A DNA stretch of 64,000 bases from Methylophilus sp. 14 (GTDB lineage: Bacteria; Pseudomonadota; Gammaproteobacteria; Burkholderiales; Methylophilaceae). Every line of letters starts with the position of its first letter. Position 1 is the first letter of the stretch. Both the position numbers and the translations under genes were made by a program. The DNA is taken from positions 1 through 64,000 of the forward strand of contig NZ_JADKYS010000008.1 in NCBI RefSeq assembly GCF_015354345.1. Direction: 5' to 3'. Positions 60,329 through 62,458 of this stretch are shown here, one piece after another. Under the pieces are notes generated by a model. It saw nothing but the letters and a program-made list of their open reading frames with translations. It had not been told where the DNA came from and did no database searches.

Positions 60329-62458
60329 ATGCGTAATTCTATCTTATTTGTGTTGGCTGTCGCATCACTGGAGAGTGGGTGCGGTGCCAAACTTCCTTCA
60401 CTTAAGCCGTTCAAGATGGAAGTTCAGCAAGGCAACGTCGTGACCTCCAAAATGCTGTTGCAGTTGCGCCCGGGCATGACGCGATCACAAGTGCGCTACA
60501 TTATGGGGACCCCGCTCATTGTAGATAGTTTCCGTGATAATCGCTGGGATTATTTTTACGAGTTGCGCAAACAGGGTGCTATTGTTGAAAAGCGTCGCGT
60601 GATTCTTGACTTCGATAAGGACAGCCTGGTTTCCGTGCGTGGGGATGTTGTTCCGTCAGCAGAAAATCCTGATGTGAAAACCATTGCAGAGCTGCCACAG
60701 AAAAAAGTGGAAGCAGAAAAAGAGCAGGCTTGGACCGATAAGCTGAAGTTCTGGAAAGCCGAAGAAGGTGCTCCGGCTGAAAAAGCAACAGAAGCGACCG
60801 CGACCGAGGCGGCCAAAGTGCAAGCAGCTGCCAGCAGTGCGCCTGCGGTTCAAGCGACGGCAGAAAAAACTGTCACAGAAGAAGAAGTTGTACCGCATAT
60901 TCCTGAAGGGGAGTATCAAGCCAAGGCTGCTGCTGCAAATGATCAAGAAATGGCGGCGAAAATTGCGGATACTGTAGAGCCTCCACCCGTGTTTAAAGAG
61001 GCCCCTGTTGCCGCGCCAACGGCAGCTGCGGCGCCCGAACCTGTGTTGCCGCCGCCAGTGAAGGCAGGCGCTGTGGCCGCTAAGAGTGTGGTGGCGCCCG
61101 TGGCTGCCGCCGCTACCGTAGCCGCTGCTGCTGCTGTGAAACCTGCTGAGTCCAAACAAGCCCCGGTTGCCAAGTCGACTGCAGTGGCAGCCGTTGAAGA
61201 TGATGAAGTGATTCCGTATATTCCTGAAGGGGAGTATGTTGCGCCAGTCGTGCCGACCGAGCAGGAAATGGTCAAAGGCAATATGGCTGAAGCCAATGCG
61301 CCAGCGACAGACGCCGAAGCGCATCAAGTGACTGAGAAAGGCGTTGCGCCCAAGGCTGATCATGCGGCTGAACCAGCACCGACATTTGTCGCTGAGCAAT
61401 TGCCAGAGCCTGAACCTGAGCCGGAACTGCCACCACCGCCTCCAGCGAAATCTATCGTGAAGGAAGTGGCGCCTATTGTTCCGCCTGCAGCGACTCTGGC
61501 GGCTAAAGCACCGCAAGCAGCGGCCAAAGTTGTTGAGTCTGCACCCGTGGTTGCGCAGGAAGTGCCTGCTGGTGATGGCGAAATCAATCAGGCAGTAGCT
61601 GCGTGGGCGCAAGCCTGGCGTAGCAAGGATATTAAAAACTATCTGGCCGCCTACGCGCCTGACTTTGTGCCAGAAGGCTTACCATCCAAAAAAGCCTGGG
61701 AAGCGCAACGTAAGCAGCGTTTGTCGGCTGGTCAGGGGACGATCGCGCTGGTATTGAATAATATTCAAGTACAGCGTGAAGGCACGGCTGCGATTGCTAC
61801 TGTGCATTTTGAGCAGAAGTACGCGGCTAAATCTTACAAGGATGAGCTGACGAAAACCTTGGAAATGCGTTATGACTCCTCACTCAAGCGCTGGTTGATT
61901 ACGCGTGAGCGTGTCACGCCTTTGGTTGGTGCAGCCGCCGTGTCTGTGGCGGATCTGCCGAAAGTGAGCACCTCTGAGCCAGTGGTCGCAGCGGAAGCAT
62001 CCGTGGCGCCGACTGCGACAGTAGATAGCGGCATTGAATCAGCGGTGCAGGCATGGGCGCAAGCTTGGCGTAGCAAGAATACCAATGCTTATTTTGCAGC
62101 CTATTCTCCTGCTTTTGTGCCAGAGGGTTTGCCTAACCGTGCCGCTTGGGAAGCACAGCGTAAAAAACGCCTGTCCCCGCAGCAGGGTAAAATCAGCCTG
62201 GATATCAGCAACCTCAATGTTTCCCGTACAGGAGACGCGGCGGTGGTGACATTCACGCAAAAATACGCCGCAAAATCCTACCGTGACGAGATGTCTAAAC
62301 GATTGGAGTTGCAATTGGATGCGGCTACCCAGCGTTGGTTGATTGTGCGTGAAACGGCTGCTTCTGGTGCTGAAGCGGCCTCTGGCAGCCAGCAAGTGAC
62401 TGCACCTGAAGGTAGCGCTGAGCATCTGGACGGTGTATTGGAACAAATCGGGTTTTAA
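60329..62458 (+). CDS. bamE: Enlarged BamE lipoprotein with Ala/Pro linker and two NTF2-like domains
   Basis: BamE is a lipoprotein of the BAM complex that folds outer-membrane proteins. Residues about 1-110 are a normal BamE (SmpA/OmlA) domain: signal peptide with a Cys at LESGC, then GNVVTSKMLLQLRPGMTRSQ and YIMGTPLIVDSFRDNRWDYF. Unlike usual BamE (110-180 residues) this one has about 709. A 300-residue Ala/Pro/Glu-rich linker follows, with two VxPxIPEGEY motifs, then two similar domains (about 416-529 and 566-678) sharing AWAQAWRSK, FVPEGLP, WEAQRK and QKYAAKSY, which look like SnoaL/NTF2-type folds seen in cell-wall proteins. The lipobox has Glu at -3, which is unusual. It starts at ATG 60329, next to fur. 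Confidence 0.85.
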   Translation: MRNSILFVLAVASLESGCGAKLPSLKPFKMEVQQGNVVTSKMLLQLRPGMTRSQVRYIMGTPLIVDSFRDNRWDYFYELRKQGAIVEKRRVILDFDKDSLVSVRGDVVPSAENPDVKTIAELPQKKVEAEKEQAWTDKLKFWKAEEGAPAEKATEATATEAAKVQAAASSAPAVQATAEKTVTEEEVVPHIPEGEYQAKAAAANDQEMAAKIADTVEPPPVFKEAPVAAPTAAAAPEPVLPPPVKAGAVAAKSVVAPVAAAATVAAAAAVKPAESKQAPVAKSTAVAAVEDDEVIPYIPEGEYVAPVVPTEQEMVKGNMAEANAPATDAEAHQVTEKGVAPKADHAAEPAPTFVAEQLPEPEPEPELPPPPPAKSIVKEVAPIVPPAATLAAKAPQAAAKVVESAPVVAQEVPAGDGEINQAVAAWAQAWRSKDIKNYLAAYAPDFVPEGLPSKKAWEAQRKQRLSAGQGTIALVLNNIQVQREGTAAIATVHFEQKYAAKSYKDELTKTLEMRYDSSLKRWLITRERVTPLVGAAAVSVADLPKVSTSEPVVAAEASVAPTATVDSGIESAVQAWAQAWRSKNTNAYFAAYSPAFVPEGLPNRAAWEAQRKKRLSPQQGKISLDISNLNVSRTGDAAVVTFTQKYAAKSYRDEMSKRLELQLDAATQRWLIVRETAASGAEAASGSQQVTAPEGSAEHLDGVLEQIGF

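Follow-up and report, generated by a model that had tools for sequence, protein, structure and literature searches.

A BamE protein of Methylophilus with a long arm and two Cds6_C-type NTF2-like domains, a candidate peptidoglycan tether of the BAM complex

The coordination between outer-membrane assembly and growth of the cell wall is still under investigation. In E. coli, maturation of the peptidoglycan is reported to control outer-membrane protein assembly, and the BAM complex is reported to bind tetrapeptide-rich peptidoglycan better than pentapeptide-rich peptidoglycan, its activity being affected differently by each (PMC9242858). In the same report, peptidoglycan in cells is cross-linked to BamA and BamC, not to BamE (PMC9242858). 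The E. coli BamE is described as a protein of about 12 kDa (PMC13067283). Departures of the BamE fold include the BamE-like immunity proteins (PMC12419801) and TpgA, which is reported to bind peptidoglycan and to anchor the adhesin AtaA (PMC13082670).

A second group of described proteins, the LD-carboxypeptidases Pgp2, Csd6 and Bd1075, is relevant to the locus analyzed here. For Pgp2 of Campylobacter, NMR is reported to place digested peptidoglycan mainly in a pocket of the NTF2 domain, and proteins with substitutions of Y233, F242, K257, K307 or E324 failed to restore the helical cell shape, F242A and E324Q restoring it partly; K307A was weakly pulled down by sacculi (PMC8038945). Binding was shown on the two-domain enzyme, and since catalytic-site mutants of the other domain bound poorly too, while the pocket mutant Y233F still bound sacculi, the pull-down as reported leaves binding by a stand-alone NTF2 domain undemonstrated (PMC8038945). 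Localization of Bd1075 on one side of the cell is reported to be directed by its NTF2 domain (PMC8938487).

The bamE frame and its BamE part

The window, i.e. the whole stretch of 64,000 nt of the Methylophilus sp. 14 contig NZ_JADKYS010000008.1 which was analyzed, harbors one open frame on the plus strand at positions 60329-62458. It starts with the ATG at 60329, ends with the stop codon at 62456-62458 and encodes 709 residues without internal stop, as had been read from the sequence before. The encoded protein consists of a lipoprotein-like signal, a BamE domain, an Ala/Pro-rich arm, two NTF2-like domains and a short tail (Table 1); Pfam models and the predicted structure agree with the earlier note in this architecture. 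The gene order is fur, bamE, dapB, with the fur-like gene divergent and the dapB-like gene downstream (both named by eye from their translations). The nearest named relative (L166, Methylophilus sp.) is 96% identical in the best segment, and the match spans residues 1-709.

Table 1. Features of the 709-residue BamE protein and their coordinates in the window
Feature	Residues	Position	Strand	Basis
Lipoprotein-like signal ending at Cys18, MRNSILFVLAVASLESGC with Glu at -3		60329..60382	+	sequence
BamE domain	35-103	60431..60637	+	PF04355, E 4.1e-25
Ala/Pro/Glu-rich linker	109-410	60653..61558	+	composition
Motif A, WTDKLKFW	135-142	60731..60754	+	family-wide motif
IPEGEY motif 1	191-196	60899..60916	+	direct repeat D2
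IPEGEY motif 2	298-303	61220..61237	+	direct repeat D2
NTF2-like domain 1, Cds6_C type	419-526	61583..61906	+	Pfam, predicted cone, pocket residues
NTF2-like domain 2, Cds6_C type	569-675	62033..62353	+	Pfam, predicted cone, pocket residues
C-terminal tail, ends EHLDGVLEQIGF-COOH	690-709	62396..62455	+	IGF end

Cys18 is preceded by a hydrophobic stretch and is invariant in the eight rows of alignment A1. The atypical Glu at position -3 of the lipobox, which had been pointed out earlier, is real and is kept at 13 of the 15 Methylophilus loci of the two-domain type, the others having Gly or Gln (one of the 15 loci, L051, is a fragment which was assigned to this type by its N-terminus).

The Pfam model PF04355 detects the BamE domain in the 709-residue protein with 87.8 bits (cut-off 23.2). 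Sequence matches of the window's BamE part in the PDB are named BamE, among them 9pxg, 7jrk, 9cmw and 5wam. The model of a Methylobacillus relative (L183) matches the Neisseria BamE 5wam as well as BamE subunits in structures of the BAM complex; this fold match is that of the relative's model, the window's own BamE part being matched by sequence alone. Two NCBIfam models give scores below their cut-offs, the BamE equivalog NF008585 (PRK11548) with 42.6 versus 93 bits and the TpgA model NF047726, a weak match, with 15.3 versus 350 bits.

The latter match, together with the match of the BamE part to the N-terminal domain of TpgA (9vnj), suggests an alternative in which the protein no longer belongs to BAM and tethers the outer membrane to the wall in a general way, comparable to TpgA, the tether of a trimeric autotransporter. 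We consider this improbable, for two reasons. The BamE part is 91-99% identical in six species pairs despite saturated synonymous sites, and the search of the window's genome revealed a single PF04355 match, which is the 709-residue protein itself (92.5 bits). Because of this sole match, the protein is taken as the BamE of the organism.

Two NTF2-like domains of the Cds6_C type and their pocket

The C-terminal part belongs to the Cds6_C family (PF24125). The whole protein matches with an E-value of 1.5e-31 and 109.4 bits, the best stretch being residues 569-675, and each NTF2 half passes the cut-off of 27 on its own with 58.8 and 60.3 bits, respectively. SnoaL_3 (46.6 bits, cut-off 22) and DUF4440 (35 bits, cut-off 25.2) also pass; the enzyme-type reading which they suggest would be compatible with the fold alone but is outscored by Cds6_C, and the Pfam search of the 709-residue protein revealed no catalytic domain. 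The predicted structure of residues 405-709 contains two NTF2 cones (helix-helix-strand-helix-four strands) with a mean pLDDT of approximately 86-88, the tail being below 50. Thus, family search and structure prediction converge on two Cds6_C domains and two NTF2 cones, and contradict the possibility, considered in the earlier note, that the C-terminal repeats have no NTF2 fold.

By structure, Bd1075, Csd6 and Pgp2 are matched with Z scores of 14.4-14.8, which numerous other NTF2 proteins reach as well; among the Foldseek and VIA matches are NTF2 proteins of the hub, enzyme and designed ligand-binding kinds. Since unrelated NTF2 proteins score alike by structure, the fold alone assigns no function. 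The sequences are more informative: a profile of the BamE-borne domains, when compared to PDB sequences, matches Bd1075 (4.9e-12), Csd6 (3.6e-4) and Pgp2 (6e-4, second entry 0.0052), and also the uncharacterised NTF2-like protein 3f7s (0.0016).

The versatility of the fold, as seen in these hub, enzyme and designed ligand-binding matches, leaves room for the explanation that the NTF2 domains bind a target other than peptidoglycan, such as a partner protein, a periplasmic chaperone or, by dimerisation, each other, with the arm as a scaffold. Two copies would fit a dimer, and in E. coli BamE may contact SurA (PMC13067283). We regard this as possible though rather unlikely, because the sequence relatives of known structure are mainly cell-wall LD-carboxypeptidases and the residues of the pocket are kept.

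Our preferred reading, binding of peptidoglycan by the NTF2 pair, builds on these residues. In the HMMER alignment, Pgp2 Y233, F242, K257, K307 and E324 correspond to Y438, F446, R461, K509 and E527 of domain 1, and Pgp2 W225 and Y237 to W430 and Y442; the PDB chain offset for the Pgp2 numbering was set from residues named in PMC8038945. The pairing of E324 with E527, which lies one residue beyond the Pfam stretch, was placed via Bd1075, the Pgp2 alignment ending before E324. In domain 2 the corresponding residues are W580, Y588, Y592, F596, R611, K657 and E675. Judged from the alignment, the window's BamE retains the predicted pocket in both NTF2 copies. The seven pocket columns are kept in 47-48 of the 48 BamE-borne domains of the family, with Arg in place of K257 (median column 54%), and the sole gap corresponds to a truncated domain of 54 residues in G126. 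Two of the five BamE domains from another family, f24, have Tyr instead of Phe at the F242 position.

The signature W-Y-Y-F-[RK]-K-E is also present in the 6 LD-transpeptidase, 11 TPR and 3 TolC-like domains compared. Since it is common to all of them, the pocket marks a wider domain family. Conservation of its residues may also reflect requirements of the fold. Three frames which by eye resemble outer-membrane factors of the TolC type (L292, L294 and L295) end in a Cds6_C-like NTF2 domain that keeps these pocket residues; the domain may serve envelope machines more generally as an accessory for binding the wall. The window's own genome harbors, at L303 (C8:346200-349400), adjacent genes for a TPR-like (by eye) and an LD-transpeptidase-like protein, each ending in a Cds6_C NTF2 domain, and the PDB matches of the latter protein are Bd1075, Csd6 and Pgp2.

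Distribution, arm and tail

A BamE match was found in 178 of the 187 Methylophilaceae genomes searched. We examined 129 of these loci, a set that includes only a minor part of genera g2 and g15; bamE is present in all of them, and four are truncated at the 3' end (G079, G101, G132 of g18 and G184 of g24), G132 and G184 being counted with the loci without NTF2. Of the 21 bamE loci in the window's genus, 14 encode two NTF2 domains and five encode one; G077 encodes none and G079 is cut before the end. Elsewhere in the family, one NTF2 domain is encoded at 10/10 loci of g16, 1/1 of g6 and 4/48 of g18, and at none of the 49 loci from the other genera sampled. Since most genera sampled are without NTF2 domains, their function is dispensable in the family. 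The locus in G077 (L023) carries the same genus label, lacks NTF2 and has the canonical tail, which points either to a true loss or to a misplaced contig.

An assembly or annotation artefact, the former considered in the earlier note, was rejected: the fusion is present at 19 of the 21 genus loci and in several single-contig genomes (G061, G062, G065, G066, G067 and G068), and thus in many independent genomes. The view of a long BamE as exceptional is incorrect for this family. Known BamE proteins are indeed far shorter in the case of E. coli, but in Methylophilaceae the 92 loci with intact 3' end and without NTF2 encode BamE proteins of 239-432 residues. Long BamE arms without NTF2 are the rule among the Methylophilaceae loci fetched, and the NTF2 modules are the special part.

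The patchy distribution, with 4/48 in g18 and 0/49 in the remaining genera, and the fast-evolving linker could be taken to mean that the NTF2 domains are functionless passengers, retained since the arm tolerates inserts. Comparison with other species of the genus makes this very hard to believe. In six comparisons, identity is 91-99% in the BamE core, 62-83% in the NTF2 domains and 51-74% in the linker; dN of the NTF2 domains is 0.08-0.27 with dS above 1, values which are rough because synonymous sites are near or at saturation. In addition, the pocket is kept and the fusion recurs. Judged from these alignments, the frame is constrained as a protein, the linker being the least constrained part apart from the short stretch that separates NTF2 domain 1 from domain 2.

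Beyond the Methylophilaceae, frames which combine BamE with Cds6_C were found in families f24 (G413 and G473 with two domains each, G391 with one) and f42 (G375 with one). Altogether, fusions occur in at least 7 of 299 genomes of the order, three Methylophilus genomes included. In the phylum-wide search (397 genomes, 30 loci examined), a BamE match in an NTF2 frame was present, among the matches listed, only in the window's own locus and in L314. The latter (G189, same order) is a BamE-like paralogue, a 294-residue frame with a weak BamE-like match (8e-5) and one NTF2 domain; its genome has two BamE matches.

In a tree of 79 NTF2 domains (127 columns, with some long branches including the f42 row), the Methylophilaceae BamE-borne domains lie on one side of a branch with a support of 93/91, which is not strong. 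The two Methylophilus copies group on a 100/100 branch, and therefore the pair arose by duplication. A single origin of all BamE-borne NTF2 domains was rejected (p-AU 0.006), a result which is not final given the few columns and long branches. Because of this rejection and the fusions in two other families, the BamE-Cds6_C fusion probably arose at least twice.

The arm (26% Ala, 14% Pro and 13% Glu in residues 109-410) is probably disordered along its approximately 300 residues, and its total length varies greatly among relatives. The two VxPxIPEGEY motifs described earlier are real and lie within the 62-nt direct repeat D2, with an identity of 74%. Motif A, [KMQRL][FL]W after the BamE domain, is present at 121 of 129 family loci and mostly resembles KG[LW]xDKLKFW.

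At the other end of the arm, 122 of the 125 family BamEs with intact 3' end terminate with IGF-COOH, mostly as ...YFERMLEKIGF. A more stringent form, [FYI]F[DENKG]x[MLIAT]L[EK]xIGF, fits 101 of these 125 loci, namely 91/92 without NTF2 and 10/33 with NTF2, the ten being all nine intact g16 loci and the g6 locus; it fits none of the 19 NTF2-encoding loci of the window's genus and none of the four of g18. The Methylophilus tail is a worn version only, EHLDGVLEQIGF in the window protein. The difference in tails between loci with and without NTF2 may reflect a single evolutionary event. A docking of the tail on BamE in cis was considered but not adopted; in the 246-residue Methylobacillus relative, a short helix is predicted in the tail (residues 236-243, pLDDT approximately 80, pTM 0.35).

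We also considered the tail as a common sorting signal. This was rejected, since the LE[QK]IGF-stop ending occurs once in the window's genome, in this bamE; a search with a 23-residue tail query gave no match, which carries no weight here. Tails of the GFFGRMLEKIG[FL] type end BamEs of other Burkholderiales families as well: by pattern they were found at 11 of 69 distinct loci of the order (best-scoring, not random; G344 is duplicated among 70, and L261 is cut), L278 being added by eye, and similar tails were seen by eye at 8 of 25 more distant loci (L219-L243). Bearers of the GFFGRMLEKIG[FL]-COOH tail across families include L246, L251, L252, L259, L264, L273 and L277. In G413 and G473 the protein ends with an NTF2 domain, and nearly so in G375; the tail is absent from these three. 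Four other BamEs (L230, L235 from Nitrosomonas oligotropha, L236 and L242) have a different C-terminus in common, ...DELCNVPSTVSIKP.

Proposed function and comparison with known systems

On balance we favor, with some reservation, the view that BAM has here an integral tether to, or sensor of, peptidoglycan. The BamE domain would be seated on BamA/BamD at the outer membrane, as in other bacteria; from there, an arm of approximately 300 residues would hang into the periplasm and present the two Csd6/Pgp2-type NTF2 domains. The NTF2 pair would bind peptidoglycan in the conserved pocket, and BAM would thereby be held at, or be responsive to, particular states of the wall. Counted against this are the Arg in place of K257 in BamE, the E. 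coli BamE, which is not cross-linked, and the many purposes which NTF2 folds serve. The arm to peptidoglycan proposed in the earlier note is thus better founded, the domains being of the Csd6/Pgp2 type with the pocket, whereas binding of peptidoglycan, residence in BAM, a reach spanning the periplasm and an effect on outer-membrane protein insertion are what we infer from the sequence.

It is tempting to speculate that the tandem NTF2 domains read the state of the stem peptides and switch outer-membrane protein insertion via BamE, while the conserved ...FFxRMLEKIG[FL]-COOH would be a second, older dock for an envelope partner, whose role the NTF2 domains would have taken over in part in Methylophilus with its eroded tail. 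We hold this extended version to be unlikely.

The tether or sensor reading is important for several reasons. It bears on how BAM reads the state of the cell wall, and could couple outer-membrane assembly to the wall. Since genera that are related differ in the presence of wall-binding-type modules on BamE, they constitute a natural experiment, and the NTF2 module can be removed or mutated with the BamE core untouched. The parts are known, but their combination on BamE appears to be unreported: we found no description of a long BamE with NTF2 domains in the open-licence literature on BamE extensions, SmpA/OmlA and BAM-peptidoglycan fusions, and the accessible text of a 2012 survey of BAM lipoproteins (PMC3359395) and of a 2026 review (PMC13067283) contains no mention of it.

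Compared to BamE (SmpA/OmlA) of E. coli, Neisseria and Pseudomonas, the window protein has in common the BamE domain, the putative lipoprotein cysteine and, as far as the relative's model indicates, the predicted fold; unlike them, it has a long arm and NTF2 domains. With the LD-carboxypeptidases Csd6, Pgp2 and Bd1075 it has the NTF2 fold and the pocket residues in common, but there the NTF2 domain serves a peptidoglycan-trimming enzyme, while here it is attached to BamE. E. coli BAM is reported to contact the wall with a preference for tetrapeptide-rich peptidoglycan (PMC9242858), and a similar contact is proposed for the window protein. In E. coli several subunits are described as binding (BamA POTRA fragments, BamB, BamC, BamE and BamCD; PMC9242858), whereas in the window protein a separate module would bind.

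TpgA serves an adhesin, whereas the 709-residue protein, beside which its genome has no second BamE match, scores below the cut-off of the TpgA model. The wall-binding part of TpgA is of the OmpA type. Nevertheless, with a BamE-like N-terminal domain (9vnj) in a peptidoglycan-binding protein, the Acinetobacter TpgA is, as far as described, the nearest precedent for the window protein (PMC13082670).
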